Origin: a candidate division FCPU426 bacterium
GTDB taxonomy: Bacteria; Oederibacteriota; JAAXVQ01; JAUVAV01
Assembly: GCA_030591525.1 (NCBI GenBank)
Contig: JAUVAV010000016.1
Coordinates: 1-63,271 of the forward strand
Length of the DNA: 63,271 nucleotides
Direction of reading: 5' to 3'
The translations under genes were made by a program, and so were the position numbers. Positions within the stretch are counted from its first letter, which is position 1; every line of letters starts with the position of its first letter. Positions 35,752 through 55,648 of this stretch are shown one piece after another. A model generated the notes under the pieces. It had not been told where the DNA came from. It worked only from the letters and a program-made list of their open reading frames with translations, and did not search any database.

Positions 35752-35778
35752 TAGGGGCGACGCATGCGTCGCCCCTAC
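35751..35778. repeat. 28-bp perfect palindrome, dispersed family
   Basis: Arms gtaggggcgacgca and its complement; identical in core to 21870-21895. It starts on the last base of the preceding GT2 gene stop codon. Confidence 0.9.
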
Positions 35779-35822
35779 TTACTGGGTATCTTGTATGATT
35801 ATTTCCGAGGGATAAGCAACGA

Positions 35823-36875
35823 ATGAGAGATAAAACCAAGCAATCCTCAAAAATATTAATACGCAGCCCGAACTGGGTAGGGGACGCGGTTATGGCTACG
35901 CCAGTACCGCGCGCCCTAAAACGTACCCTGCCGGATTGCCAGGTTCACATACTGGCCAAATCCTGGGTAGCTCCCATCTGGGAGAAGCATCCGGATGTTG
36001 ACCGGATCATAGTCATGGATCCTGAAAAACGCCGGGGATTTTGGCGCTGGATTTCTTTGGCCATGTCCTTGAGGAATTTCCAATATAATTTGGCAATTAT
36101 CCTGCCTAATTCATTTTCTGCGGCCTGGCTGGCTTTTTGGGCCGGGTGTCAGACCCGGGTGGGTTATAGCAGCGATCATCGCGGATGGTTATTAAATATA
36201 AAATTGCCGTGGACCAATGGGACCCGGCATCTAGCCAGGCCCCAAATTTACCTGAACCTGGCCCGCGCCGCCGGTGCGGATGTGGATCTATGCCAGGAGA
36301 GGATTTTTACCCTAAAGATCAGTGCCGAAGAGTCGGCCAGGGCGGATAAGTTGCTGGGGCCAAAAACCTCTGGACCTCGAATAGGTCTGGCGCCGGGGTC
36401 GGTGGCGTTGAGCCGGAGATGGCCTGCGGAGCGCTATGCGCAACTGGCTGACCGGTTAATTAAGCAGGGATATCAAGTAGTGTTAATAGGCAGTGATGAA
36501 GACCGCCGGGTGGCCCTGGCCGTAGCCCGGAAAGCAAGGAATAAACTATTAGTTCTGGCCGGAGAGACCAATTTAAGGGAAGGTCTGGCAATTATCCGCC
36601 GGCTGGACCTGCTGGTCAGCAATGATTCCGGGGCCATGCATCTGGCGTATGCGCAGGGAACCAAGGTGTTGGTATTGCAGGGCGCGGCTGATCCCCGGGT
36701 GACCGGCCCTTTTGGCAATTGCGGATTTATCCTGCGCGATGAAAATTTGAAATGCTCACCCTGCATGCGCAATGAATGCCCGCGCAAGGACTTGAAATGC
36801 ATGCGGAATATTTCCGTGGCTCAGGTCTGGCAGAAGATTCAAGCCATCCTGTCCGGGCCGGATAAGAGCGGTTAG
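35823..36875 (+). CDS. waaF: ADP-heptose:LPS heptosyltransferase II-like
   Basis: 350 residues, GT9. ILIRSPNWVGDAVMATPVPR and FWAGCQTRVGYSSDHRGWLL are characteristic of WaaF. Donor-site blocks PGSVALSRRWPAERYA, VLIGSDEDRR and LVSNDSGAMHLAYAQGTKVL follow. C-terminal cysteines (CSPCMRNECP, DLKCM) also match. It would add the second heptose of the inner core. The next gene starts 4 bp on. Confidence 0.9.
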   Translation: MRDKTKQSSKILIRSPNWVGDAVMATPVPRALKRTLPDCQVHILAKSWVAPIWEKHPDVDRIIVMDPEKRRGFWRWISLAMSLRNFQYNLAIILPNSFSAAWLAFWAGCQTRVGYSSDHRGWLLNIKLPWTNGTRHLARPQIYLNLARAAGADVDLCQERIFTLKISAEESARADKLLGPKTSGPRIGLAPGSVALSRRWPAERYAQLADRLIKQGYQVVLIGSDEDRRVALAVARKARNKLLVLAGETNLREGLAIIRRLDLLVSNDSGAMHLAYAQGTKVLVLQGAADPRVTGPFGNCGFILRDENLKCSPCMRNECPRKDLKCMRNISVAQVWQKIQAILSGPDKSG

Positions 36876-36879
36876 TAGC

Positions 36880-37836
36880 GTGAACTTTACTAATATACTG
36901 GTAATAAAAATACGGGGCCTGGGGGATACTTTGCTGGCCACTCCGGCCTTGCGCGCTCTGCGCCGGGCTTTTCCAGAGGCACGTCTGACCATGACCGCAG
37001 CGCCGCCGGGCTGGGAAGTGTTGGAAAACAACCCGGATATAGATGAAATCCGGGTTTATGACAAGCATGCCTCCAGCTGGATATATCACCTGAATTTCAT
37101 GCGTAGATTAAGGCAGAGCCGGTTTGATCTGGCCATAGCACTGCACGCTTCTTTTCGCACGGCCTGGCTGGCCCGGGTTTCCGGCGCGCCGCGCCGGGTG
37201 GTGCATAATCACAGCGGAAAAAATTATTTTTCCACCATGGACATTCCGGCCAAGAAAGAATCCAAGTCCGCGATTCAGCGGGATCTGGATGTCGTCCGGG
37301 CCTTGGGCATACCAGAGGCCGGGGAGAAATTGGTTTTTCCTCTGGAAGAGCGTCATTTTATTGGGGCGCGCACTTTTTTGGAAAAGCACGGCCTGCTGAG
37401 AGCCAAGCGCCTCATGCTTCTGGCGCCGGGCGCGGGCAAAAAGCGCAAACAGTGGCCGGCTGATGCGGCCAAGGCTTTTTTAAATCAGAGTCCTCAGGAT
37501 ATTGCCTGGGTTATTGCGGCCGGGCCGGGGGAGCAGGAAATGATGGCGGATATCAGCGCCCGCGTTAAAGATTGCCCCCCGATATTCCAGGGGAATATAA
37601 AAGAGCTGGGAGCATTAATGACCTTGAGCAAGGGAGTAGTGACCGCTGATTCCGGGCCCAAGCATGTGGCCGTGGCAGTCGGCGTGCCGACCTTGACCCT
37701 CTGGACCGATGAGCCCGAAGCGGAATGGCATCCCTATGACCTGGCCCGTCACGCCCTGGTTCGTCCCCCTTCCGGCATAGTCGCGGACATTTCACCCCAA
37801 GCAGTTGCCCGGGCGGTAGAGCGGCATTTTGGATAG
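36880..37836 (+). CDS. GT9 heptosyltransferase-family protein (WaaQ-like)
   Basis: 318 residues. ILVIKIRGLGDTLLATPALR, LAPGAGKKRKQWPADAAKA, VTADSGPKHVAVAVGVPTLT and LWTDEPEAEWHPYD match heptosyltransferase III/WaaQ-like proteins. GTG start at 36880. The last 105 bp of this gene and its flank recur, degenerate, at 38953-39056. Confidence 0.83.
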   Translation: MNFTNILVIKIRGLGDTLLATPALRALRRAFPEARLTMTAAPPGWEVLENNPDIDEIRVYDKHASSWIYHLNFMRRLRQSRFDLAIALHASFRTAWLARVSGAPRRVVHNHSGKNYFSTMDIPAKKESKSAIQRDLDVVRALGIPEAGEKLVFPLEERHFIGARTFLEKHGLLRAKRLMLLAPGAGKKRKQWPADAAKAFLNQSPQDIAWVIAAGPGEQEMMADISARVKDCPPIFQGNIKELGALMTLSKGVVTADSGPKHVAVAVGVPTLTLWTDEPEAEWHPYDLARHALVRPPSGIVADISPQAVARAVERHFG

Positions 37837-37998: not shown

Positions 37999-38027
37999 GT
38001 AGAGACGCCCAATTTGGGCGTCTCTAC
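37999..38027. repeat. 29-bp palindrome
   Basis: Arms gtagagacgcccaa and ttgggcgtctctac around a single base. Same style as the palindromes at 21771, 21870 and 35751 but a different sequence. Confidence 0.85.
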
Positions 38028-38068
38028 AAATAATGCTATCCGGAAAATCCGGACAGTTCAGAAACAAT

Positions 38069-38184
38069 GAATCCGGGACGTTGATTAGTCAGTAAGTGAG
38101 CGCAATTTACATGAGCCCGTATTACCGAACAACGTCCCCCATCACAGAAGATCATAGGGCAGCTTATCCATTGAGAAGCAGGGA
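38069..38184 (+). repeat. Island repeat copy A (right-end type 1)
   Basis: Left end gaatccgggacgttg, core ttagtcagtaagtgagcgca, right end accgaacaacgtccccc (to 38140). GGGACGTTG (38075-38083) and CAACGTCCC (38130-38138) are inverted ends. The trailing 'atcacagaagat ... gagaagcag' (to 38184) recurs at 47800-47839. Confidence 0.85.
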
Positions 38185-38237: not shown

Positions 38238-38456
38238 ATGAGATCAGTACTGTCAATAAGCCTGCCCGACAAGATTGCCCGTGAGCTCGACCGGTTCGCA
38301 AAGAGCCAGGGAAGGAACAAGAGCGACGTGGTCAAGGAATCAATCGGCATTTATCTTTGGGAGTCCCGGTTTGAGGGCGCGCGGAAAAGCCTCGGCGCGC
38401 GGGCAAAGAAGAAGGGCATGGTAACAGACGAAGATATTTTTAAGGAAGTGTCGTGA
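38238..38456 (+). CDS. Ribbon-helix-helix antitoxin
   Basis: 72 residues. MRSVLSISLPDKIARELDRF then GRNKSDVVKESIGIYLWE is a CopG/RHH DNA-binding fold; the basic C-terminus (GARAKKKGMVTDEDIFKEV) would bind the toxin. It shares GTGA with the downstream PIN gene. It likely represses its own promoter and neutralises the PIN nuclease. Confidence 0.85.
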   Translation: MRSVLSISLPDKIARELDRFAKSQGRNKSDVVKESIGIYLWESRFEGARKSLGARAKKKGMVTDEDIFKEVS

Positions 38457-38857
38457 AGGCGGTATTCGACACCAATGTACTCCTCGCGGCCTTTCTCACT
38501 GAAGGCGTCTGCGCAAAGCTTCTGACGCGGGCGCGGAAACAACAATTCAACCTTATCGCCTGTCCCTTCATCCTGCATGAATTCGAGCGAATCCTTTCCA
38601 AGAAATTCTCAGCGACAAAACCGGAAAAGAAAAACGCACTGGCGTTGATCACCGAGGCGGCCCAGGACATCGTGCAGCCTTCAGAAACTCCGACCGGGGC
38701 TTGCCGGGACAAAGATGACGACAATGTTCTGGCCTGCGCTCTGGAAGCAGACGCTGATTATCTTGTCACGGGAGATAAGGACCTTCTTCACTTGAAAGTG
38801 TTCAGGGGGATACACATGATCACTCCCCGGGACTTTGAAATGCTTTTTGATAATTGA
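38453..38857 (+). CDS. PIN-domain toxin (VapC-like, COG1569 type)
   Basis: 134 residues. The four acidic positions of PIN ribonucleases are visible: Asp6 in VFDTNVLLAA, the Glu in PFILHEFERIL, DKDDDNVLACALEADADYLV and TGDKDLLHL. GTG start overlaps the antitoxin stop. Family members cleave RNA (often tRNA) when the antitoxin is lost. Target unknown. Confidence 0.85.
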   Translation: MKAVFDTNVLLAAFLTEGVCAKLLTRARKQQFNLIACPFILHEFERILSKKFSATKPEKKNALALITEAAQDIVQPSETPTGACRDKDDDNVLACALEADADYLVTGDKDLLHLKVFRGIHMITPRDFEMLFDN

Positions 38858-38952
38858 GGACGGCATCGTTGAACAAGACGATAAAAGTGGGGGAGAAACT
38901 GGTTCAAGACCGTGATCTAAAGCTACTAAGCTAACTCCGTCACTCACATGAA

Positions 38953-39056
38953 CCGTCACGCTCTGGTGCGTTCCTCTTCCGGCGTGGTCGCGGATATCTC
39001 ACCCAAGCGGTTGCCCGGGCGGTAGAGCAGCATTTCGGATAGTTTGTTCCCTGGGA
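38953..39056 (+). pseudogene. Remnant of a GT9 gene 3' end
   Basis: About 88% identical to 37746-37850, the last 30 codons and 3' flank of the GT9 gene upstream, with about twelve substitutions and one deleted base that breaks the frame. Half or more of the coding changes are synonymous, so this seems to come from a once-functional paralogue. Together the two copies bracket the toxin-antitoxin pair. Confidence 0.75.
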
Positions 39057-39204
39057 GCTTGAGCAATTAGTCCGAAATTCAAGTATTCCCCTCCCTTTTT
39101 GACGGGAGGGGATAAAAGCCTTTAAAATCGCACCCTCACCTAACTTTTCCCCTCGTTGAGGGAGAGGGATTATTCATATCAAAATCTAATTGCTCAGGCT
39201 CCTA
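39050..39204. repeat. MITE-like element, complete copy
   Basis: Terminal inverted repeats ctgggagcttgagcaattag (39051-39070 region) and ctaattgctcaggctcctag (39185-39204), two mismatches in 20. Internal hairpins include cccctccctttttgacgggaggggat. Partial copies lie at 8807 and 19606, and a right-end scrap at 50178-50190. No coding sequence. Confidence 0.75.
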
Positions 39205-39294
39205 GAAATGACACCTGATGAAAAACAAAGTTTGAGAATTTTAGCACGTATTCTTACTCGCTAAATTTTAAAGGATAATAAAAAAGAGCGTATT

Positions 39295-42200
39295 ATGGTT
39301 CAAAACAACAATGAATATTTTATTGAACGTTTCCTCTATCCTTGCGACTCCTCTAAAGAGATCACCCTGGAGGTCGATGGATTACTTCGAATTAATGAGG
39401 AAAACCGCCAAAATGCAAAATTGGTAACATTTGATGAATTTGTGAAACTACCCGGCGCCATTCTATTAGCCGAAGGCGGCATGGGTAAATCGAGAGTGAT
39501 GCAACAACTTGAAAATATCTTTCCTGGAAAGTCGTTTTTACTGGAAATGGACCGATTTATCAAAGACCCTCAAGGTTTAAGGGGAGCTATTGATGCATTT
39601 CTCAGCTTGCCATTCGGTCCCGAGGATATCAATAGGGCCATACTTATTGATGGATTGAATGAAACGCCAGATCTCGTTGGACCGCTTTTACACAAAATTA
39701 GTAACATTCCACCTGCGATCACGATATGGATTGCTTCGCGCGATTTTGACGGCATGCGGAAAATTCAAAAGGGATATCCACAACTGCAATCTTTTGCGCT
39801 TGCGCCCTTGCGTGAACCGGATATTGTCGAGTATGCCAATCAAGCCGGCGTGGATGGTTTTCGATTTATCAAAGCGGTTCACCAACAAGGTATTGCTCCG
39901 ATTTGTGCCAAACCAATCGGGTTAAAGATGGTGCTCTCCGTTTTTAAAGAAAATGACACCCTGGAAGGTCTGGGCCAAGTTAAACTATGGCATAAGGGCA
40001 TCCAACATCTCTGCGATCAAACTCCATCCGCAACAGGAATATCGGGCACGTATATGCGCGATGATATTGTTGCCTGTGCCGCCTGGATGGCCGTCTGTTT
40101 AACTTTATCAGATAAACAAGTGATATGGACTGGTATTGAAAGTAATTGCCCTGAGAAACAATGTGTCTCCATTTCGGCGATGGTGACCGAAGGCTGTCTA
40201 CCTGAGAAAATTCAAGAAACCCTCACGCGTGGTGTATTCTCACCCTTGAGTGATGGCCGCGTTCGTTTCACACATGCACTCTACCAGGATTATCTGGCGG
40301 CTTATGGATTTAAACAATTTATTCCGCAAATTCACTGGCCGTCTTTGTTGATGAATCATGACAGAAGTGGTACTTTGCCGCAGCGGAATGGAATTGCTGT
40401 TTGGCTTGCGGGTTTTGACAAAAACTTTTGCGATGCTTTATTTGATATTCAACCCGAAATCTTACTCGCGTCCGTGGATGCAATTCAAACGATAGGTCCT
40501 CAAACAGTTTGTACTGCGCTATTCGATCGGGCAATCTCGATGAGTTATCACCAACGTCATCGAAAAGCATTTGAACATAATTTATTTCGCCTGGCGTGTG
40601 CCGAAACGTCATCTGCACTTCATGAACGGTTGCGAAAAAGGGATGCCAGTGAATCAGAAATTGAATTGGCTATTGAAATCGCTGAAGCTTGTCACTGCCG
40701 CGAACTTTCCGATGCTCTTGCGGATAGGGTACTTGACCAATCACTGCCGCTAATGCAACGTGTAGATGCCGCATATGCGATTGACCGCTGGGATAATGAA
40801 ACAGCCAAAGGACGGCTTAAAGCGCTTCTGCCCATCAATCCAGCAACTGATTCATACGACCAACTTCGTGGAATCTTATTGCAATGCTGTTGGCCAGAGC
40901 ATCTGACAGCGGAAGAGCTTCTTCATCAACTCATTCAACCGCAGCGAAGCAGTTTTACTGGTTCTTATGAAATGTTTCTAACACGTGGATTGCCACATAC
41001 CTTTGAAGCCACGATCAATGCGTCAAATGCTCTGGTATTTTTAGAGTGGAGCTTGCTTCACATTACCGAGAATGACCCGTATGATTCGCTTGGGGTGTTA
41101 GCACGTAGGATTTATTCTCACTGTTGGCAATGGACTTCAAATCCCGATATACGGGCGTTGCTGGCACGAGGATATTTGAAAGCTTCAAAAGAATATAGAG
41201 CGCCTTTTTTTGCGGAACGCTATCGTGGTGAGTTGGAGTTGGAAAAAGTTTTATCGCGAGAAAATATTTTTCAAGATCGCACTGGACGTTTGTTGGTGTT
41301 GGAAGAAATCATCCGAATGGATGCGAATGCTCAGGGTATCGTACATATTTCAGGCAATGATTATCCACTTTGTGGATTAGGCGATGAAAATGTTATTTTT
41401 GAAAAGATTTTGGGAAATCCTACAAGTTCCTTGGCCAGTTCTTGGGTGGCATATCTTAAAGTAATCCTTCGAAATGACGAAATAGATAAGTTCGCTGAGC
41501 AAGTAAGTCTGCTTCATAACCTGCGTCCTGATCTAATGGATTCTATTGATACACTTAAAACAATGGCTCTGGAAGCTGTAGCGCAAAGACAAGAATGGGA
41601 ACGACAATGGAAAGTAGATGGGGAAGCCCGCGAATTAAAAGAACAGGCCAAACAAGTTGCTATTGACTCCGAGATTAAATCCAAACTTCAACAAACCGAT
41701 TTGGCAGCGAACCATTTTGGACGGCTAGCTAGATTGCTTTGTTTCGAGAACGGACAGCTTTTACTACATACATTAGATTTAACTCAATCACCAGGATGGA
41801 GTAAACTCCAACCTGACGTGCAAAATTCTTTAGTTACATTAGCGGAACACTACTTAAAAGAGGCAGTGGAAACATCCAGTGGTCCCGAGAAACTACTGTT
41901 TTCATATGCCCAAGCGCTCACACTTCTTCACATTAAAAAACCAGGTACATATGAAGCTTTAAGTGGGAATGTATGGAATAAAAGCGGGGTAGAAGTACTA
42001 AAATTAGCTGGATTGTCGGATTTGAGCCCCAGTGAGTGTTTGGTAACGTTGCTAAATACTTTTTCCAATAAATTTCCGGATATTGCCGAAAACGCTTTAA
42101 TCCAAACGGTGCGCCAGCAATTACAAAACGGATATATTTCGATTTTAGATTATTGGGGAGAGCGTTTGTCAGATAAACAAGCTCAAGCCATTTTAAACAT

Positions 42201-43419
42201 AGTGGGAGATCCAGTGATTGGAACGATTAAAAGCGGTCATATTCTCGACGCGTTGGTGCAAAACGGAAAAGAAACTTTAGTCAGGGAATATCTAAAAACG
42301 TTGCTCGTGGAGGTTTGGAGCCCGCATCCGCATAACAATCTAAATCATCACGTGCATTTAGCGCTTGTTCTAAATCCGAACCATTACTCGTCCCGTTTTC
42401 TCACTGCATTGCAGACAGACCGAGCGTGGGGCAGACAGTGGTTTGAATCAATAGGATTGGATCGGGAAGGACACCTAATCGATGCTTTAGGATCCTGTTC
42501 ACCTGATGTCATAGCCGAAGTATATATCTGGTTGCATACGGAGTATCCGGCCAATACAGAACCCGACCATGAAGGCGGTTTTATGGGCCCACTGGATTAT
42601 ATTCATTTATTCAAACCCCGACTCATTAATCTCTTAGTAACCGGTGGTGAAGAAGGTTCTGCCGCCGCTCTGGAAAAAATACAGGCTCAGTTTCCAGATA
42701 ACGGGTGGTTGCGAGACTGGTGTATTGATGCTAGGAACAATGAACTAGCAGCAAAGTTGCCAGTGCTTAGTTTTGAGATTATCAAAGTATTGCGCGAGGA
42801 AAAAAGTTCGGCGCGTAGGTTGGTAAACTCGATTTCGGATTTAAAAGAGATCATAATCGAAAAGCTTGATGGCTATCAGTCCTATCTTCAAAAAGATATA
42901 GTACCTGCTGTGCGTGATTTATGGAACACTAAAAAAGACGGATCATCGTGCTGGCCCAAAAAAGAAGAAGATCTTTCAGACCATCTGTGTCGCTATTTGA
43001 ATCTCACCTTGAGAAGCGGTGTGGTTATTAACCGCGAGGTACAGATCAGTCGCAAACTTTTTGAAGACGGCGCACAGGGATCCAAAACTGACCTGTGGGT
43101 CCAAGCTTTTCCTCCAGAGGGCAAACCTGTGACGCTTTGTATCGAGGTGAAGTGTAATTGGAATCCATCAGCAGAAACTGCCCTTGAAAAGCAATTGATT
43201 GATAAGTATATGCCGGGAAACAGGGCCGAAGCAGGTATTCTTCTGCTCGGATGGTTTGAATGCTCATCATGGGATAAAAACGATAATAGACAAGCAAATT
43301 CAATTCGCATATGGAAAAATAGCATTCTTGCGAAAGAAGATCTAGACAGTCAATGTGAACAAAAGAGAGCAGCAGGTCATTTGGTCTATAGCCGAATCAT
43401 TGATTGTAGTTTGACTTAA
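39295..43419 (+). CDS. STAND-type NTPase with helical-repeat core and C-terminal PD-(D/E)XK nuclease-like domain
   Basis: 1374 residues. The NTPase lies at the N-terminus: Walker A AEGGMGKS (59-66), Walker B AILIDGLNE (115-123), and ASR (147-149) in WIASRDFDGM, the pattern of NACHT/STAND ATPases. Residues about 350-1200 are helical with HEAT/TPR-like composition. The C-terminus has NREVQISRKLFEDG, Asp1266 in KTDLWVQAF and Glu1284-Val-Lys1286 in LCIEVKCNWNP, the D-x17-ExK order of PD-(D/E)XK nucleases. STAND proteins with nuclease effectors defend against phage (Avs family), but those carry the effector at the N-terminus. Lower GC than the LPS genes and its place in a repeat-rich accessory region suggest transfer. 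Defence is an inference. Confidence 0.75.
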   Translation: MVQNNNEYFIERFLYPCDSSKEITLEVDGLLRINEENRQNAKLVTFDEFVKLPGAILLAEGGMGKSRVMQQLENIFPGKSFLLEMDRFIKDPQGLRGAIDAFLSLPFGPEDINRAILIDGLNETPDLVGPLLHKISNIPPAITIWIASRDFDGMRKIQKGYPQLQSFALAPLREPDIVEYANQAGVDGFRFIKAVHQQGIAPICAKPIGLKMVLSVFKENDTLEGLGQVKLWHKGIQHLCDQTPSATGISGTYMRDDIVACAAWMAVCLTLSDKQVIWTGIESNCPEKQCVSISAMVTEGCLPEKIQETLTRGVFSPLSDGRVRFTHALYQDYLAAYGFKQFIPQIHWPSLLMNHDRSGTLPQRNGIAVWLAGFDKNFCDALFDIQPEILLASVDAIQTIGPQTVCTALFDRAISMSYHQRHRKAFEHNLFRLACAETSSALHERLRKRDASESEIELAIEIAEACHCRELSDALADRVLDQSLPLMQRVDAAYAIDRWDNETAKGRLKALLPINPATDSYDQLRGILLQCCWPEHLTAEELLHQLIQPQRSSFTGSYEMFLTRGLPHTFEATINASNALVFLEWSLLHITENDPYDSLGVLARRIYSHCWQWTSNPDIRALLARGYLKASKEYRAPFFAERYRGELELEKVLSRENIFQDRTGRLLVLEEIIRMDANAQGIVHISGNDYPLCGLGDENVIFEKILGNPTSSLASSWVAYLKVILRNDEIDKFAEQVSLLHNLRPDLMDSIDTLKTMALEAVAQRQEWERQWKVDGEARELKEQAKQVAIDSEIKSKLQQTDLAANHFGRLARLLCFENGQLLLHTLDLTQSPGWSKLQPDVQNSLVTLAEHYLKEAVETSSGPEKLLFSYAQALTLLHIKKPGTYEALSGNVWNKSGVEVLKLAGLSDLSPSECLVTLLNTFSNKFPDIAENALIQTVRQQLQNGYISILDYWGERLSDKQAQAILNIVGDPVIGTIKSGHILDALVQNGKETLVREYLKTLLVEVWSPHPHNNLNHHVHLALVLNPNHYSSRFLTALQTDRAWGRQWFESIGLDREGHLIDALGSCSPDVIAEVYIWLHTEYPANTEPDHEGGFMGPLDYIHLFKPRLINLLVTGGEEGSAAALEKIQAQFPDNGWLRDWCIDARNNELAAKLPVLSFEIIKVLREEKSSARRLVNSISDLKEIIIEKLDGYQSYLQKDIVPAVRDLWNTKKDGSSCWPKKEEDLSDHLCRYLNLTLRSGVVINREVQISRKLFEDGAQGSKTDLWVQAFPPEGKPVTLCIEVKCNWNPSAETALEKQLIDKYMPGNRAEAGILLLGWFECSSWDKNDNRQANSIRIWKNSILAKEDLDSQCEQKRAAGHLVYSRIIDCSLT

Positions 43420-43471
43420 TAAACTCATTTGTAATAAGAAAAATATTTTATTCGAACCGTATAATCGAGTA

Positions 43472-43559
43472 GAATCCGGGAGGTGGGTTAGTCAGTAAGT
43501 GAGCGCAATTTACATGAGCCAGGTTAACTTGACAAATTGACTCCGTCCGTGTGCCACGA
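43472..43559 (+). repeat. Island repeat copy B (right-end type 2)
   Basis: Left end gaatccggg, core ttagtcagtaagtgagcgca, right end aggttaacttgacaaattga then ctccgtccgtgtgccacga. Starts 53 bp after the STAND gene. Confidence 0.85.
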
Positions 43560-43571
43560 AACAATACACCC

Positions 43572-43600
43572 AAGGCGCACTTAACCCGTGCGCCTTTTTT
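43572..43600 (+). terminator. Rho-independent terminator
   Basis: Stem aaggcgcac / gtgcgcctt (43572-43580, 43588-43596) with a 7-nt loop, followed by T's to 43600. It would end transcription of the STAND gene. Confidence 0.8.
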
Positions 43601-43623
43601 GTTTTAAGCGTTGGTGGTGGCTG

Positions 43624-43647
43624 GCCCTGCACCGCATGGTGCAGGGC
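43624..43647. repeat. 10-bp-stem hairpin
   Basis: gccctgcacc / ggtgcagggc around gcat. No T-tract; lies between the terminator and the DUF4365 gene. Purpose unknown. Confidence 0.6.
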
Positions 43648-43736
43648 TTGCACCTTTCGCCCAACCTGGAACGGTTGAAATGGCAAGTTAAGAAACGTCC
43701 CGGTTCAGAGGACAAGCAAGGTTAATATTAGTAGCG

Positions 43737-45566
43737 ATGAGAATCGAGAACAAAATGAAGAGACCCAGGCAACACATAATAGATGCAGAGGCGGAAAAAA
43801 TATTCCGGAGTTCTGTTCCTTCGACAGAGTGGTTAATTAGAGATATTGGAAAAAATGATTATGGAATAGATTTTGAATTAGAATATTTCAATGATAAAAA
43901 GTCGACCGGGATAATCATTAAAGTGCAATTGAAGGGAACAGAGAATCTAAAAATAAATAAAAGTGGTTCTTTTATTTCCCGGGTTTTTGACATCGATAAT
44001 ATTAAATATTATCTCGAGGAGATAAATATCCCATTAATAATTGTGATTGTTGATATTGAATTGTCAAAGATTTACTGGCACAATCCGAAATTGGACGATG
44101 TATTGCAAAATGATTACTTAGAAGCGATGAAAAATAAACAAAAAAGTGTCAGTTTGCGTATTAACACAACACATATACTACCGAACGATTTTCCGTTGCT
44201 TAAATACGAATACTATAGGACGCAAACGCTTCTTTCGGCAAACACTCTTTCGAGAAATAATGAGAGCTATTTTTCCGAGATACTAGGATTTCTAGATAAA
44301 GAGAAGGCAATAGGTGGTCTTCAAAATAAAATAGAAATAGTGAAACTAGCTCATGTCCGTGATTGTTTAGAGAAATTTAATCCGGAGAAATTCAACGAAA
44401 TACTAGCACGAATTGATTCGCTGATAATATCTGCAGATTGTAATTTAGATACGAAATATCAGGCGATGCTTTACCGAAAAGAAACCGAACTTAAAAAGGA
44501 TATCCATTTAAATCAAGGGAAAAACATTGATAAAATCTATCTTGACTATGCTTTGCGATTAAAAAAAATATCAGACAAGGGCCCTGCACATCTTAGGATG
44601 ATAAGCCTTGCTCTGCATAAAACAGCTAAATTGCAAATACTTGTTAACAGAGAATATAATATTTACCTTAATCTGAAGATAAAGAGTGGCCAAATGGCGG
44701 AATTTTGGAAATATTCTGTTCTGTCAAATAGAATTATGATAAACAAAAAAATACAAATATTATTCAAACAATTAGATCAGCTAATTTTCATTTTGATTAA
44801 GCTACATCAGGCATATTCTTTGCCTTCTCTCATTCGTGAAATTATATTAAGTTTCAATAAATATATTGTAAGATTGAGGTCGGAAAAACTTAACGTGGCA
44901 GCCAATGTGTACTGGGGAAAGTTGTTTGACCTTATTGAAGTAGCTTTCAGAGTAATAGAGTTTTATAAACTGTATGAAATGTATGAGGTGATTAATTTTA
45001 TCGTACCTGCTATGAATTATGAAAATGAAATCGAATTAAATAAAGAATTAGAAAAAGCAATAGCGCTGATATTGGATATAAAGCATGAAGAGTATAAAAT
45101 TAAAACAAAAAAAGAATTTGTGCAGAATGTGAATGAATACAGAAATATATCAAGCAAAAAAGGAAAAGAATTCAGCATAAAAGATGAGATTGAATTTTAT
45201 AAAGAACAAGCTAAAACATTTGGTGTCGATTTAGATGATCAGGAGGATGAAATATCTAGAATAGTTAATATTGGCATATTGGATTTAAATCCCGAGAGAA
45301 TATTAAAAAAGTGTTCTTATCTTTATGTGCGCGGGACTGGTCATGGATTGGTTGCGGAGATGCTACATTTACCAACAGCGGGATTTAAACGGCTAGTCTG
45401 CACTAAGCTTGGATATTCGGTAGAAGGTTTGTCGCTTGATAGTATTTACCAGTCTATAGAAAAGCAATTTTGTAGCAAATGTATAAGTAATCATCCCCAC
45501 CCACCAAATTGGAAATGGTCTCGAAAATGGCAACGTGAACAAGATAAAATATTCTTTAACACATAA
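43737..45566 (+). CDS. DUF4365 (PD-(D/E)XK-like) protein with long helical C-terminal part
   Basis: 609 residues, strikingly AT-rich. The N-terminus is a DUF4365 domain: KRPRQHIIDAEAEKIFRSSV, WLIRDIGKNDYGIDFELEY (Asp41, Asp45) and IIIKVQLKG with Gln64-x-Lys66, the QxK variant of the nuclease active site. Residues 200-520 look helical and lack a recognisable family. The end has CSKCISNHPHPPNWKWSRKW, a possible metal-binding or nucleic-acid contact. DUF4365 domains are frequent in phage-defence loci. ATG 43737 has no good ribosome site; ATG 43755 is possible. Function not established. Confidence 0.65.
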   Translation: MRIENKMKRPRQHIIDAEAEKIFRSSVPSTEWLIRDIGKNDYGIDFELEYFNDKKSTGIIIKVQLKGTENLKINKSGSFISRVFDIDNIKYYLEEINIPLIIVIVDIELSKIYWHNPKLDDVLQNDYLEAMKNKQKSVSLRINTTHILPNDFPLLKYEYYRTQTLLSANTLSRNNESYFSEILGFLDKEKAIGGLQNKIEIVKLAHVRDCLEKFNPEKFNEILARIDSLIISADCNLDTKYQAMLYRKETELKKDIHLNQGKNIDKIYLDYALRLKKISDKGPAHLRMISLALHKTAKLQILVNREYNIYLNLKIKSGQMAEFWKYSVLSNRIMINKKIQILFKQLDQLIFILIKLHQAYSLPSLIREIILSFNKYIVRLRSEKLNVAANVYWGKLFDLIEVAFRVIEFYKLYEMYEVINFIVPAMNYENEIELNKELEKAIALILDIKHEEYKIKTKKEFVQNVNEYRNISSKKGKEFSIKDEIEFYKEQAKTFGVDLDDQEDEISRIVNIGILDLNPERILKKCSYLYVRGTGHGLVAEMLHLPTAGFKRLVCTKLGYSVEGLSLDSIYQSIEKQFCSKCISNHPHPPNWKWSRKWQREQDKIFFNT

Positions 45567-45571
45567 ATTGT

Positions 45572-45676
45572 GAATACGGAACGTTGGCTAGTCAGTGAAT
45601 GGAATCCGTGACATTGGTTAGTCAGTAAGTGAGCGCAATTTAAATGAGCCAGTATTACCGAACAAAGTCCCTCATC
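45572..45676 (+). repeat. Island repeat copy C (one partial, one full, in tandem)
   Basis: A partial unit (gaatacggaacgttggctag, 45572-45591) is followed by gaatccgtgacattgg ... accgaacaaagtccctc from 45602, right-end type 1. Starts 6 bp after the DUF4365 gene stop. Confidence 0.8.
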
Positions 45677-45816
45677 CCGCTGCATCTCCTTGTCGCGCCG
45701 AAGCGTTAGCGAAGGCGGAGGCGGTGAAAAAACCGCATGAACTCCTCCGGAATCCGGTCTAACCAAATATGGCTTGCCAATACCACTTGAGCCATATTAC
45801 AATTCTGGAGGTAGAC

Positions 45817-46140
45817 ATGACGGAAAAGAAGGTGATAACATTGTCGGAGTTGAAAACGGTTATGGAAGAAGTCGCAACGAACTATAAAAAGATCATAGAA
45901 GTTGTACAACACAATCATTCGGAAACCCAGGCGGAATTTCAAATTATAAAAGGGGATATTCGCTCCCTGAAGGAACAAGCTGGCGTATTGACGGTGGATG
46001 TTCATGGATTAAAGGGGCAAGTCGCCCTTTTGCACGAAGGCCAGACGGAAATTAAGAATTCATTGAAACAGAAGGTGGGCCGGGACGAATTCGCCGCACT
46101 GGAGATGCGTGTGGCCAGGTTAGAAAACAAAGCGGCCTAG
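45817..46140 (+). CDS. Small coiled-coil protein
   Basis: 107 residues from ATG 45817, which follows 'ctggaggt'. Heptad-rich throughout (LSELKTVMEEVATNYKKIIE, IRSLKEQAGVLTVDVHGLKG, LHEGQTEIKNSLKQKVG, FAALEMRVARLENKAA). No enzymatic motif. Such proteins are common beside mobile elements and have no assigned role. Confidence 0.7.
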   Translation: MTEKKVITLSELKTVMEEVATNYKKIIEVVQHNHSETQAEFQIIKGDIRSLKEQAGVLTVDVHGLKGQVALLHEGQTEIKNSLKQKVGRDEFAALEMRVARLENKAA

Positions 46141-46148
46141 TGTATTAC

Positions 46149-46239
46149 GGGACGTTGACGGTTATCTTTGTAATTCTTTGTGCTTTTTTCATTAATGTTA
46201 TTAATTTTTACCTACCCGTATTACCGAACAATGTCCCCC
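46149..46239 (+). repeat. Island repeat copy D (degenerate)
   Basis: Left gggacgttg at 46149-46157 and right accgaacaatgtccccc ending at 46239, but the usual core is replaced by AT-rich sequence. It directly precedes the RAYT relic. Confidence 0.6.
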
Positions 46240-46246
46240 ATCACAG

Positions 46247-46432
46247 GCTAAAAAGGCTTGGGTGCTGGTAGCATATTGGGGCAAAAAGTTGGAGATTTCC
46301 GGGATCGAAATAGCGAAATATTTAGGAGTCAGCAATGCCGCAATCAGCTATCTGGTACGCCGTGATGAGCAGTATGCCAGGGAAAGAGGAGTTAACTTGT
46401 TATTTTACCACGTCCCCAAAGTTCAAAAGTAG
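46247..46432 (+). pseudogene. C-terminal relic of a REP-associated tyrosine transposase (RAYT)
   Basis: 61 codons with no start, ending TAG at 46430. KKAWVLVAYWGKKLEISGIE then IAKYLGVSNAAISYLVRRDE is the DnaA-like helix-turn-helix that closes IS200-type Y1 transposases of the RAYT group. The Y1 catalytic domain (HUH, Tyr) is missing entirely. RAYTs mobilise palindromic extragenic repeats, and this scrap lies inside a copy of the island repeat, linking the two. Confidence 0.7.
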
Positions 46433-46546
46433 TTGGCAGAACAGGTAAGAAAGCCAGACGTTTTTCAGGCAAGTGTACCAACTAAGCGGCAAGGGTCAAA
46501 ATTCCATTTCACGCTGAACCAATACATGAATCGTTGAGAATCATTT

Positions 46547-47629
46547 ATGAAATTAATAAAGCCGAAAAAAAAAGTAGTTATTGTTTTCTTTATTATATTA
46601 AGTGGACTTGTATTTCTTTTTTTATGGGCATGCGGTGGCATACAGTTACCCGGAATCATAAAAGGACAGGTGTATGACTTTGGTACTGGTCATCAATCAA
46701 AGTTTCAAACAAATAACAAAATAATAATACTAACATGGAATATTGCTTATGCCCATGGATTTGGTTCAGAAGGTAAGAGATATATCCCGCAGAATGCAGA
46801 AGAGATGAGTAATCGTATCAAACGTATTGGTGATATAATCCGCAATAGCAGAGCTGATGTGGTGTTATTACAGGAGATTGACTTTGATTCACATCGTAGT
46901 CATAATGTTGATCAGTTAAGAAAATTATCGTGTATTACTGGTTTGCGTTATGCTGCTCGTGCAGTGACTTGGAAAGCTGGATACGTTCCATTTCCATACT
47001 GGCCACCTAATCATCATTTTGGTGCTATGTGTTCGGGCGGAGTTGTGCTTAGTCGCTATCCTATTACTATTAATCATGTAACATTACACCCAAAGCCTAA
47101 AAAAAATCCCTGGTGGTACAATGCTTTTTCTTTGTTTCGGTATACCCAGGAAGTGAAGATCCATTGGGGTAAAAAAATCATTTGGGTAATAAACAATCAC
47201 TTGGAGTCATTTAATCAAATCAATCGTGTAAAACAAGCCAATGCTTTAGTTGAAATAGTTGGTAATTACACTAACTTTGCAGGGATGGTAATTGTTGGTG
47301 GTGATATGAATACTATTCCACCTGAAGCGACTGTACATCACGGTTACCCAGATGGTACAGGTGATGATTATCGTGGTGATACTACAATGTATATACTTAG
47401 GAGTATGTCCAAGTTCAAAGAAGTAGTGAAGAAAGAGAGCTGCCAGAAAAATGAGTCAGCTTTTTTTACATTCCCAGCCCATGCACCTAATCGTCGCCTT
47501 GATTATTTATTTGTTCCAAAAAATGTGTTGGTAAAAGATGTACGCATGATATCTACTGGGGATCTATCAGACCATTTACCGGTCCGAGCTGAATTGATAT
47601 GGCTAAAAGTCATTAAGGAAGGTTTTTGA
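46547..47629 (+). CDS. Endonuclease/exonuclease/phosphatase-family protein, membrane-anchored
   Basis: 360 residues. One N-terminal hydrophobic segment (VVIVFFIILSGLVFLFLWAC) ends in WAC-GG, which could be a lipobox. The EEP fold is complete: IILTWNIAYAHG, ADVVLLQEIDFDSHRS, GGVVLSRYPI, VINNHLESFNQ, VIVGGDMNTIPPEA and STGDLSDHLPVRAEL. Members cleave phosphodiesters of DNA, RNA, inositol or sphingolipids. An extracytoplasmic site argues against DNA repair. Low GC. Confidence 0.82.
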   Translation: MKLIKPKKKVVIVFFIILSGLVFLFLWACGGIQLPGIIKGQVYDFGTGHQSKFQTNNKIIILTWNIAYAHGFGSEGKRYIPQNAEEMSNRIKRIGDIIRNSRADVVLLQEIDFDSHRSHNVDQLRKLSCITGLRYAARAVTWKAGYVPFPYWPPNHHFGAMCSGGVVLSRYPITINHVTLHPKPKKNPWWYNAFSLFRYTQEVKIHWGKKIIWVINNHLESFNQINRVKQANALVEIVGNYTNFAGMVIVGGDMNTIPPEATVHHGYPDGTGDDYRGDTTMYILRSMSKFKEVVKKESCQKNESAFFTFPAHAPNRRLDYLFVPKNVLVKDVRMISTGDLSDHLPVRAELIWLKVIKEGF

Positions 47630-47721
47630 TTTTGATGCTTATTCCGCTCAAGACGGCAACCCATTCCAGTCATGGCGGCCACCTTCTCCCACTGAACAAA
47701 ATCTAATGAACGAAGTGGGAT

Positions 47722-47786
47722 GTAGGTTAGTTAGTAAGTTGAACATGTCTGACCGTAATTTTATGCTAACTTACTAGCTAACCTAC
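47722..47786. repeat. 19-bp inverted repeat
   Basis: Arms gtaggttagttagtaagtt (47722-47740) and aacttactagctaacctac (47768-47786), one mismatch, 27-nt loop. The arm resembles the 'ggttagtcagtaag' core of the island repeat, so it may be a member folded on itself. Confidence 0.75.
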
Positions 47787-47793
47787 TGGAGTT

Positions 47794-47906
47794 CCCCCAT
47801 CACAGAAGATAATAGGGCAGCTCATCCGCTGAGAAGCAGTACAACTGAATCCGGGACGTTGGTTAGTCAGTAAGTGAGCGCAATTTACATGAGCCAAAAC
47901 GTCCCC
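47794..47906 (+). repeat. Island repeat copy E with shared 3' tail
   Basis: 'cccccatcacagaag ... gagaagcag' (47794-47839) matches the tail of copy A. It is followed by gaatccgggacgttgg (from 47847), the core, and a shortened right end aaaacgtcccc at 47906. It ends 16 bp before the DUF1801 gene. Confidence 0.8.
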
Positions 47907-47922
47907 GTTGAAAGGTTAAGAA

Positions 47923-48285
47923 ATGAAAAGTAAAGATGTTGACAAATATATAGGTAAGTTTGATGGTGAGAAAAAGGTAGTTCTGAAAAAACTCAGGACT
48001 ATTATTCTGAAGACTTTTACCAATATAAAGGAAGAGATGAAAATGGGTGTTCCATGGTATGAAGACAAGTATTACTTAGTTGGTTTGAAAGACCATGTGA
48101 ATATTGGTTTTTCTATAAATGGTTTATCAAAAAAAGAAATGGGTCTTTTTGAAGGTGCTGGTAAATTGATGAGACATATTAAGGTTTTTTCTGTTGAAGA
48201 TATAGATGAAAAGAAGTTGGTTAAACTTCTGAAAGTATCCAATAAATCAATATGCCTCCATTCAAAAAAGAAAGGAATGAAATGA
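47923..48285 (+). CDS. DUF1801 (YdhG-like) protein
   Basis: 120 residues. VDKYIGKFDGEKKVVLKKLR, EEMKMGVPWYEDKYYLVGL and HVNIGFSINGL, with a Lys-rich C-terminus, match the DUF1801/YdhG fold. Molecular role unknown. AT-rich, like its neighbours. The ribosome site is 'gaaaggtt'. Confidence 0.72.
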   Translation: MKSKDVDKYIGKFDGEKKVVLKKLRTIILKTFTNIKEEMKMGVPWYEDKYYLVGLKDHVNIGFSINGLSKKEMGLFEGAGKLMRHIKVFSVEDIDEKKLVKLLKVSNKSICLHSKKKGMK

Positions 48286-48313
48286 ATGTATCGTGAATAC
48301 GTGAATAACGAGT

Positions 48314-48400
48314 GAATCCGGGACGTTGGTTAGTCAGTAAGTGAGCGCAATTTACATGAGCCAGGTTAACTTGAAAAATTGACTCCGTCCGTGTGCCGTG
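48314..48400 (+). repeat. Island repeat copy F (right-end type 2)
   Basis: gaatccgggacgttggttag at 48314, 28 bp after the DUF1801 stop, ending gtccgtgtgcc near 48397. The next 'acgaggctgtacgagagatg' is also found after copy J. Confidence 0.85.
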
Positions 48401-48681
48401 TGCAACGAGGCTGTACGAGAGATGAAGGCAGCGATACTCGGCATTGGTTTACACGAGCAGGTGCCAAACCGTCTTGAGCTGCTGTGTTCAAAAGGCATGG
48501 TGGTGAGCGTCAAGGCAAGACGAAGTGGAATGTCTCCCCCCATCCCCATGATAACTGATACAACCCCTTCAGCCTGAACTTATCTCGTTGACGTAGTATT
48601 CCAGCTCTTGTTACACTTGCCTTCAAATATAATTTCTATCAGCCGGATAATTTGATGACATTGAAAGGAGAAGTGGAGGAT
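48401..48681. other. Intergenic region before the PPC-repeat gene
   Basis: No gene recognised. Holds the second copy of the cgttgacgtaNtattccagc repeat (48563-48616), otherwise unremarkable sequence. The PPC gene ribosome site 'gtggagga' is at its end. Confidence 0.55.
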
Positions 48682-50025
48682 ATGTTGTGGAAAAAGATAT
48701 CAACCGTGGGAGTTGGGATGTTAGCCTGGGGATGCCTTTCAGGCGGGATGGCAGAGGCGAAACGCAACGTACTTGAAATGATAAAAACAGACGTAAAAGC
48801 CGATATTAGTAGTTCCGGGAATATAACCGGCGAGAAGGAACCAAACGATGATTTGCTTTCTCCACAAAAGTTGGAATTAGGCGCGGTCATTAAAGGACGT
48901 ATAAATAAAAAAGAGGATATGGATGTTTATCATTTTGCGGTTGCATCCAACAAGCGGGAAGTAATTATGATCACTTTGGATAACACCGCTGCCAAGTTCA
49001 GTCCGCATATCGTAGTATATAGTCACAATAGAGAGCCCGTGGGATACATCGCTTCGCAACGCGCCGGTGTCAGGACTTTGCGGGCTAAAATGACAGTCGG
49101 GCCTAAGGAAGAATATCTCATTCAAATATTCAGCAGCAAGATTGGCTATGGTCTTGAGTATGCCCTGAAGAAGATAGATGAAATAAAATCCACAAAACCG
49201 TATTTCCTTGAAGTGAGAAAGGCCACTTTAAAGGATGGGATACTGATAGATAAACATGAACCGAATGATGATCTTCTGCAGCCTACAAGCTTGGAGTTGA
49301 ATACGTCGGTAAAGGGGACTATCGAACCGCTGAGAGATGTGGATTATTATAAATTTCACTTAGCGTCGAATAAAAAGGAAGAAATAGAAATAAATATTAC
49401 AAATCAGGCGAAAAATATTGCCCCTAATATTATTGTATATGATGGAAATCGGGAAGAACTTGGTTGGCGCGGAACGGAAAAGGGAGCGGCATCGGTTGGG
49501 GCAAAATTGGTGGCGCAACCAAACCGGGATTATTTCATTGCCGTATTTAGCGGTACCTTTGGCATAAATGCTGAATATGCGCTTGAGAACCGGCATAAAG
49601 AAAGATCGGATAAATATTATTCTTTAGAAGTGAAATTAGTATCCACGGCTGCGGATAAATATGAACCGAACGATGATTTGTTGAAAGCGACTCAGGTATC
49701 GCTGGGGAAGATTAAAGGCACTATCAATCCGCCTTGGGATATTGATTGTTATAAATTTAAGGCTCTGAAATCTGGGAAAATGCATATACAACTATTAAAT
49801 CCCGCATTGGAAATTACCCCGAGGTTTATAGTATATAATTCTAAACGTATAGAAATTGGAAAAGCTACTACGAAGCAAAAAGGCGCGGCAAAAATTGGAA
49901 TGCGCGAAAATATCAAGGCAGGAAGAGAGTATTATGTAAAAATATATAGCGGGGGGTTATACGATTCAAAGCCGGATGACGCCCATTCTGATAAGGAATA
50001 CACCTTGAAAATAGAAGTGAAATAA
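48682..50025 (+). CDS. Secreted protein with three PPC-like domains
   Basis: 447 residues. A signal peptide (ISTVGVGMLAWGCLSGGMAEA, cleavage after AEA; read as two parts) precedes three repeats starting near residues 52, 192 and 327. Each begins EPNDDLL, then 'G.IKG.I....D.D.Y.F' and a beta-rich remainder (HIVVYSHNREPVG, NIIVYDGNREELG, RFIVYNSKRIEIG). This is the bacterial pre-peptidase C-terminal fold, normally attached to secreted enzymes; here no enzyme is present. ATG 48682 with 'gtggagga' is chosen over 48652. Confidence 0.75.
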   Translation: MLWKKISTVGVGMLAWGCLSGGMAEAKRNVLEMIKTDVKADISSSGNITGEKEPNDDLLSPQKLELGAVIKGRINKKEDMDVYHFAVASNKREVIMITLDNTAAKFSPHIVVYSHNREPVGYIASQRAGVRTLRAKMTVGPKEEYLIQIFSSKIGYGLEYALKKIDEIKSTKPYFLEVRKATLKDGILIDKHEPNDDLLQPTSLELNTSVKGTIEPLRDVDYYKFHLASNKKEEIEINITNQAKNIAPNIIVYDGNREELGWRGTEKGAASVGAKLVAQPNRDYFIAVFSGTFGINAEYALENRHKERSDKYYSLEVKLVSTAADKYEPNDDLLKATQVSLGKIKGTINPPWDIDCYKFKALKSGKMHIQLLNPALEITPRFIVYNSKRIEIGKATTKQKGAAKIGMRENIKAGREYYVKIYSGGLYDSKPDDAHSDKEYTLKIEVK

Positions 50026-50188
50026 AAAACATGGGAGAAGGGGATGCAGGGGGATTTGCTGAAAAAACGCACAACTATTTATTCAAAATCCCCCGTAATC
50101 CCCCTTTTAAAAAAGGGGGAAGTTATATAAAAATGCAATTTAAACGCAGATTAGTTTTTTCAACGTTGTTAAGTCCGACAGGCTCCTA
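50026..50188. other. Intergenic repeats after the PPC gene
   Basis: Contains 'aatcccccgtaatccccc' with the hairpin cccccttttaaaaaaggggg (about 50098-50119) and the MITE right-end scrap aggctcctagg at 50180-50190. No gene. Confidence 0.55.
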
Positions 50189-50259
50189 GGACGTTAATTA
50201 GACAGTAAGTGAGCGTAATTTACATGAGCCCGTATTACTGAACAACGTCACGTCCCCCC
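50189..50259 (+). repeat. Island repeat copy G (right-end type 1)
   Basis: ggacgttaattagacagtaa, then gtgagcgtaatttacatgag, then ttactgaacaacgtcacgtc. The right end is slightly rearranged. It follows the MITE scrap directly. Confidence 0.8.
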
Positions 50260-50341
50260 AACTCATTGAGCCCGATTGATTCGACAAGCTCAGCAACCGG
50301 TTCAACATCATGGGGTTCCCAAAGTTCGCTGGAAAATGTTA

Positions 50342-50369
50342 TTGACAAGCCCAGGATTTATGGTATATA
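50342..50369 (+). promoter_or_regulatory. Promoter, apparently leaderless
   Basis: Consensus TTGACA (50342-50347), 16-nt spacer, TATATA (50364-50369); a TATATG at 50366 with 18-nt spacer is the alternative. The ATG at 50376 follows within 4-6 bases and no ribosome site is present. Confidence 0.65.
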
Positions 50370-50375
50370 TGGAAT

Positions 50376-51551
50376 ATGAGTGTCCAAAAATACCAAAAAA
50401 ATGGAGAAATAATACCCAGAATACTCAGCCATCCGGAGACTTCTTTTTTTCTTTTTGGGCCTAGAGGCACTGGGAAATCCACTTGGCTTAGAGCTAAATT
50501 TGCTCAAGCTTTATGGATAGACTTATTACAACCCGATCAATTTCAGAAATTCATGGCACATCCAGCTTACCTGCGAGAGCTAATTGAAGGCCAACCTAAT
50601 AAATCTGTCATAATTATCGATGAAATTCAGAGGATTCCGGAACTATTAAGCTTAATTCATGCCCTCATTGAAGAGAAAAAAGAAAAGCAATTTATTTTAA
50701 CCGGGTCAAGCGCAAGAAAGTTAAAACGAACCGGAGTAGATCTTTTAGCCGGCAGAGCGATATTATGTCAGATGCATCCATTTATTGCCGCTGAACTTGG
50801 AGATGATTTCAATTTGGACCAGGCGCTTGAACTTGGATTACTACCTTTAGTAGTTACTGCTAAAAATCCTTCAAAAATACTAAAGGCTTATCTGGCGCTA
50901 TACATTCGTGAAGAAGTTCAGCAAGAAGGCTTGACCCGTAATTTAGCCAATTTCACCAGGTTTTTAGAAGCCATATCCTTCTCGCAAGGATCAGTAATCA
51001 ATACAAACAATATATCCAGAGAATGCCTGGTAGAAAGAAAAACAGTTGAACGCTATATTGGCATTTTAATAGATTTATTAATAGCTTTTCGTTTGCCGGT
51101 TTTTACTAAAAGAGCCAGAAGGGAAATTATAGCGCATGATAAATTTTATTTCTTTGATGCCGGCGTGTATAGATTTTTACGCCCGCAAGGCCCTTTGGAT
51201 CAACCTCAGGAACTGGATGGAATAGCTTTAGAGACTTTAGTATTTCAGCATTTAAAAGCCTGGAATTCAACTATTGATGATGAGCATAAAATATATTATT
51301 GGAGAACCAAGCATGGAATAGAAGTGGATTTCATTATCTATGGTAAAAAATATTTTTTGGCTATAGAAGTAAAAAATACTTCCAAAATACGTCAGGAAGA
51401 TTTAAAAGGTTTAAAAGCTTTTTTAAATGATTATCCTGAGAGTCGAGGTGTTTTTCTATACCGTGGGACCGATCAAATTTTACGAGACAAAATATTATGT
51501 ATGCCTTGTGAATCGTTTTTAAAAAAATTAAATAAAAATTTCAAACTATAA
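50376..51551 (+). CDS. AAA-type ATPase with DUF4143 domain, second copy
   Basis: 391 residues. P-loop GPRGTGKST (28-36), VIIIDEIQRIPELL, ILTGSSARKLKRTG, and a C-terminal DUF4143 with HGIEVDFIIYGKKYFLAIEV, again an EVD...E.K nuclease-like pattern. It belongs to the same broad family as 26195-27355 but is clearly diverged. Low GC. Own promoter close to the start codon. Role unknown; the ATPase may act in stress or conflict responses, as inferred only from context. Confidence 0.83.
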   Translation: MSVQKYQKNGEIIPRILSHPETSFFLFGPRGTGKSTWLRAKFAQALWIDLLQPDQFQKFMAHPAYLRELIEGQPNKSVIIIDEIQRIPELLSLIHALIEEKKEKQFILTGSSARKLKRTGVDLLAGRAILCQMHPFIAAELGDDFNLDQALELGLLPLVVTAKNPSKILKAYLALYIREEVQQEGLTRNLANFTRFLEAISFSQGSVINTNNISRECLVERKTVERYIGILIDLLIAFRLPVFTKRARREIIAHDKFYFFDAGVYRFLRPQGPLDQPQELDGIALETLVFQHLKAWNSTIDDEHKIYYWRTKHGIEVDFIIYGKKYFLAIEVKNTSKIRQEDLKGLKAFLNDYPESRGVFLYRGTDQILRDKILCMPCESFLKKLNKNFKL

Positions 51552-55527: not shown

Positions 55528-55648
55528 CGAAAATTATCGTTAACTTGTGATTTTAACCGCGTCCCCCTTTCCAGGAAAACACAAAACATAGTCTTGCCAG
55601 GACCGATCCCTTTGATATAAAATTTGATAAAAATATAAGAAGAGTGAA

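Follow-up and report, generated by a model that had tools for sequence, protein, structure and literature searches.

Passages of Di Nocera et al. (2013, PMC3733652) describe TIRYT elements, or TIRtrons, as Y1 transposase genes lying between long inverted ends that also occur as dispersed repeats; the right end may overlap the gene, and the end motif given there is GGGGWSAS. According to part of the account by Quentin et al. (2018, PMC6006769), TnpA_REP subclass 2.1 has a C-terminal helix-turn-helix (HTH) related to Bac_DnaA_C and holds most published TIRYTs. Classical REP-associated tyrosine transposases (RAYTs), in passages of Nunvar et al. (2010, PMC2817692), go with REPs that are headed by GTAG. 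Here we analyse a locus at 46149-46432 of the window, which is the whole 63,271-nt stretch of contig JAUVAV010000016.1. The locus is very probably what is left of a dead TIRYT-type RAYT copy, truncated at its 5' side and belonging to an end family that we call C; directly on its left lies a decayed, non-autonomous element from a second end family, B. Other genomes, contigs and loci are denoted by G, C and L numbers, respectively.

The + strand has an open stop-to-stop frame of 75 codons at 46205-46429, followed by the stop TAG at 46430-46432 in the translation of the window. Within this frame, 46241-46429 comprises the C-terminal HTH segment of a RAYT-type Y1 (HUH) transposase together with the right end, assigned to family C on DNA identity and a profile match; translation and alignment to the profile place the HTH peptide IAKYLGVSNAAISYLVRRDE at 46310-46369 (+ strand). 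The profile was made from 15 RAYT proteins, using the last 110 residues of each and leaving out the relic and its nearest relative; the 15 members are not all independent, as close pairs such as L067/L068 and L043/L144 are included. We ran it against the 1463 stop-to-stop frames of at least 25 aa in the window plus two stubs from contigs C21 and C66 of the same genome. The relic frame was the sole one reported among the 1463 window frames (E 7e-13), and the C21 and C66 stubs scored 3e-13 and 1e-4. In a BLASTP search of the collected RAYT proteins, the relic peptide matched the G001 protein at 85% over 26 aa, that is, up to the stop of the G001 contig, followed by G004 (44% over 52 aa), the protein on C8 of the window's own genome (41% over 44 aa) and the RAYT on G005:C349 (37% over 51 aa); there was no convincing match for L143 or L068, and the listing did not include L067, L134 or L138. 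Thus, the C-terminal HTH does survive, as had been proposed from the letters alone. The proposed loss of the catalytic part is likewise borne out: the relic is without the Y1_Tnp (HUH) catalytic domain of Pfam, no Y1/HUH sequence lies beside it, and a genome-wide search with Y1_Tnp found four places, none on the contig of the window.

The relic is closed by a second right end, CCACGTCCCC, which differs from that of its left neighbour. The family-C right end as a whole, GTTAACTTGTTATTTTACCACGTCCCCAAAGTTCA at 46391-46425 (+ strand), is the inverse of the end upstream of a RAYT gene in G001 (L062 991-1017), where the corresponding sequence reads GGGACGTGGTTAAAATAACAAGTTAAC. G001 is Candidatus Firestonebacteria bacterium CSMAG_1793, which shares its genus with the window's genome, and the gene lies on the minus strand of its contig C109 (DAOVYW010000147.1). 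The relic is 91% identical in DNA to this gene over 85 nt and 86% identical to a stretch of G005:C67 over 163 nt. The G001 gene, the nearest relative of the relic, has the catalytic domain (Y1_Tnp 27.0 bits against a cut-off of 23), but the contig ends before its HTH is complete. An inserted GTAG...CTAC palindrome marks the position of its frameshift. A broken copy on C50 of the window's own genome has the same palindrome in the same place; this copy also carries about 0.7 kb of further inserted sequence and is deleted as far as the last codons. The window itself contains such a palindrome, GTAGAGACGCCC..GGGCGTCTCTAC, at 37999-38031; about 14 places in the same genome are among the matches listed for it, it also occurs in G001 and G005, and it is this sequence by which the C-type RAYT genes of G001 and C50 are interrupted.

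A search of six family genomes with the 1020-nt G001 element returned at least 75 rows, many of which are the palindrome or coding sequence common to other RAYTs; G001 aside, none of the matches listed exceeds 338 nt. Other end-anchored fragments of family C are right-end pieces on C50 of the window's genome, G005:C67 and G005:C60, and a left-end piece on G005:C8. The right end of the relic is likewise the inverse of copies on C50, in G003 and in G005, and the window has a further family-C right end at 55539-55566 (+ strand; 89% over 28 nt and 89% over 36 nt), behind one of the A+D island repeats treated below. No intact family-C gene was found among these genomes; the G001 gene is frameshifted, and because the contig stops inside it, G001:C109 shows the family-C left end but not the right one.

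The differences between relic and relatives show no preference for the third codon position. Over 78 nt the relic differs from the G001 gene at 3/2/2 first, second and third positions, with four of seven changed codons non-synonymous, and from the G005 homologue at 6/7/7; that homologue has an in-frame TAG and a one-base insertion. Together, the absent third-position bias and the broken homologue suggest a dead remnant, and the small counts indicate that the relic would be under no constraint at the protein level. A frame kept open for 75 codons could be imagined to encode a small DNA-binding protein, a regulator or an inhibitor of transposition. The evenly spread differences and the disrupted G005 reading frame speak against such a protein, as does the absence of any ATG-, GTG- or TTG-started ORF of at least 60 aa among those listed at the relic, and we regard it as very improbable. 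Even less credence, next to none, can be given to a chance frame or to a non-transposase HTH, the latter named in the preliminary description as a refuting outcome. Four Pfam HTH models do match the relic weakly (E 0.005-0.14), but all remain below their cut-offs, RAYT C-termini match far better, and the DNA of the relic continues the same-genus RAYT gene; we therefore reject this candidate.

The point at which the relic begins raises a separate alternative. The stubs in the window and on G005:C67 begin within about 5 nt of each other (positions 936 and 931 of the G001-element query), in surroundings whose genes differ, and the stub of another RAYT on C21 of the window's genome begins at the same codons as that of the window. 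The C21 stub (L035 1690-1829) is an HTH segment that starts immediately after a C21-type right end and extends as far as the contig does; two of the three coinciding stubs abut the right end of another element. The stub might thus itself be a non-autonomous mini-element, composed of the HTH segment and the C right end and moved in trans. IS200/IS605-type enzymes normally need both ends, however, and by reading of the sequence no C left end lies upstream of either the window stub or the G005 stub; moreover, the window's own genome yielded just a single long C stub. A mobile stub is therefore unlikely in our estimate. Plain random decay does not predict that three stubs should start together, which counts against the explanation that we prefer, as do the lack of an intact family-C gene and of a Bac_DnaA_C match in the relic; the coincidence may reflect recombination favoured at this site, mobility of the stub or chance.

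In the preferred reading, a truncated and dead family-C copy, the HTH, the C-type right end with its inverted partner before a same-genus RAYT, the B identity of the left piece and the RAYT between B-type ends in G005 are direct observations. The parent would have been a family-C RAYT ending in the HTH of the relic and in CCACGTCCCCAAAGTTCA. By analogy with known families, its transposase, while alive, would have acted on single-stranded DNA through a Y1/HUH active site, with specificity coming from the inverted ends and perhaps from the HTH too. Fragments anchored at the right end would keep the HTH because it lies next to that end, and the HTH of the relic would now have no function of its own.

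The left neighbour, at 46149-46238 (+ strand), is a decayed family-B mini-element. It is 76% identical over 46158-46238 to an intact 103-bp B element on C21 of the same genome and has lost about 9 nt at its left end (GGGACGTTG-ACGGTTATC against GGGACGTTGTTCGGTAATACGGTTATC). The repeat-type ends noted beside the relic in the preliminary description are present: GGGACGTTG starts at 46149 and the other end is CAATGTCCCC, with one mismatch to CAACGTCCC. Counting both strands, the window has five matches to GGGACGTTG, where 0.33 would be expected; a count of five or more is not seen in any of 100 shuffles. The reading of 46149-46238 as a copy of the common island repeat does not hold, and we discard it: only about the right 28 nt are shared with the island copies at 38116 (97% over 32 nt) and 45649 (89% over 28 nt). 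The intact C21 element forms a long hairpin (z -12.2); the fold of the window copy has z -1.9, with 10 of 200 shuffles as good.

Family B is tied to a transposase gene in another genus: on G005:C349 a 340-aa RAYT lies between B ends. B copies are numerous in G005, where five places match the whole 103-nt element at 92-98%; the 44 rows of the B-element search count both strands and both arms. The right B end on G005:C349 is without the final GTCCC, so this copy may not be mobile. A candidate empty site of B is found in G005, GTGTATTACAGTCTAAAA, compared with GTGTATTAC-B element-CATCACAGGCTAAAA in the window. This comparison is suggestive of insertion 3' of TTAC without target duplication, and only suggestive, since the shared stretch is 9 nt and ATCAC also occurs on the B right end at 38138.

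The genome of the window (96% complete, 91 contigs) has four Y1 genes, three of them open through the HTH and one, L003, with a stop before it. None has inverted ends equal to A (the family that begins the island repeats), B or C; the ends of the C21 gene (L002) have the first 12 nt, GGGACGTTGGTT, in common with A. No RAYT with A, B or C ends was found in this genome, which fits the earlier proposal that the copies here need an enzyme encoded elsewhere or are immobile. Elements of this kind tend to break assemblies, and with that completeness and contig number the result does not amount to proof of absence. In the lineage, RAYTs with such flanks, which had been named as a check, do occur: a C left end on G001:C109, B ends on G005:C349 and an A-like end on G002:C55.

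We tested the inverted flanks of such genes against 200 shuffles in two locus sets, of 15 and 27. In the first, 10 of 15 loci beat every shuffle (L001, L002, L003, L004, L066, L067, L068, L069, L074 and L043); the five that did not pass were L070, which has another C-terminus, the fragments L071, L072 and L073, and L045, which was scored on the wrong strand and passes as L144 in the larger set. Exact GGGGACG is present in seven of the ten passing genes, L003, L004 and L043 differing. In the 27-locus set, where L140 and L144 repeat the genes L043 and L045, all seven full-length HTH-bearing frames (337-346 codons with the stop; L134, L138, L139, L140, L143, L144 and L148) beat every shuffle. L129, L135, L136 and L149, which are not of this kind, did so as well; L125 and L145 had no match to score, and 14 loci did not exceed the shuffles, among them the G001 parent L131, whose right end lies off its contig.

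The island repeats have a different make-up. The 49-nt consensus of their left part, A, is found at nine places between 38069 and 61189, matching 40-49 of the 49 positions and always on the + strand (38069, 43472, 45602, 47847, 48314, 50182, 51568, 55448 and 61141). The A end is about the first 38 nt of each repeat. The right part is D in five copies (43472-43549, + strand, and those at 48314, 51568, 55448 and 61141), B in three (38069-38140, + strand, and those at 45602 and 50182) and another in one. The relic ends in C, its neighbour is B and the nine island copies begin with A, and on these grounds we rule out the relic as the source of the island repeat. Of the overall interpretation in the preliminary description, the RAYT HTH without its catalytic part and the dependence on an enzyme elsewhere, or immobility, are retained, whereas the origin of the repeats in the relic is not.

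With at most two mismatches, the A end occurs in 2 of 145 related genomes, the window's own (13 places) and G005 (one place). The A left part with the extension TTTACATGAGCC was not found on the other contigs of the window's genome, where matches stop at about query position 41. On C78 and C66 of this genome the A end precedes RAYT-like gene starts that are 81% (over 59 nt) and 83% (over 41 nt) identical, respectively, to the start of the G001 gene. On C66, a RAYT HTH fragment is also enclosed in a short element bounded on either side by A ends (L034 775-935), which sits behind what seems to be part of a different Y1 transposase. About 175 nt downstream of the Y1 gene on C8 there is an A-like element that has both its ends. 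No complete A-type RAYT was found in our searches, the nearest being the A-like end on G002:C55.

All nine island repeats are intergenic, 3 to about 230 nt past the preceding listed stop codon. Four of the nine were folded: three A+D copies show no folding beyond that of shuffles (z +1.1, -0.1 and -0.4), and one A+B copy has z -2.6. GC content drops from 0.48-0.55 before 40 kb to 0.37-0.42 beyond, and GC skew is positive throughout; the long genes there also run on the + strand, so the skew is no indicator of replication direction. Genes of the low-GC island at 38453-51551 include PIN_3 (38453), DUF4365 (43737), DUF1801 (47923) and an AAA_14/DUF4143 ATPase (50376), and glycosyltransferases lie upstream of the island at 34936-37836. 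A known RNA family behind the repeats was rejected, as Rfam searches of 36000-63271 at gathering thresholds and of 37800-63271 at E <=0.5 returned only a piece of a group II intron (RF01999, 62.6 bits, 48433-48526), which lies just behind an A+D repeat. Several A+D copies run on into GTGTGCC, which resembles the 5' end of an intron.

The joining of A to B, D or another right part could mean that ends of different TIRYT families recombine. The copies have spread within the island only and share one orientation, and their left end is fixed while the right extent varies, as would be expected of single-strand transposition that is one-ended and strand-biased. We put this forward as a tentative and unlikely reading; if true, the mixed ends would fit an enzyme that needs only one cognate end.

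The relic is ordinary genomic debris, the broken tail of a known enzyme type. Its analysis records TIRYT-like elements, and the debris they leave, in Candidatus Firestonebacteria and links two end families, B and C, with transposase genes. It also shows that ends from different families are joined in the island repeats. Before mobility is inferred from such repeats, it should first be checked which enzyme owns their ends.

Judged from its sequence, the relic resembles TIRYT/TIRtron elements and TnpA_REP subclass 2.1. The right end on G005:C349 overlaps the gene, as in the TIRYT elements covered by the passages of Di Nocera et al. (2013, PMC3733652), whereas the relic is a truncated stub and not a whole element. 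The GGGGWSAS motif given in those passages is not matched by the C end, GGGGACGT, whose seventh base is G where the motif has A, and compares with GGGGACG in the 7 of 10 genes tested here. The relic shares a C-terminal HTH tail with subclass 2.1, but unlike the part of the subclass description cited above, Bac_DnaA_C is below its cut-off in four of five genes scanned and has no Pfam match in the relic itself. The best NCBIfam match of the genes scanned is NF047646, with scores of 78.2, 68.0 and 76.2, just under the cut-off of 80, and 51.4 for the partial G001 gene. A gene between inverted ends that recur as small repeats is shared with the classical RAYTs of the passages in Nunvar et al. (2010, PMC2817692); the GGGAC termini of the A, B and C ends differ from classical REPs in having no GT(A/G)G head.
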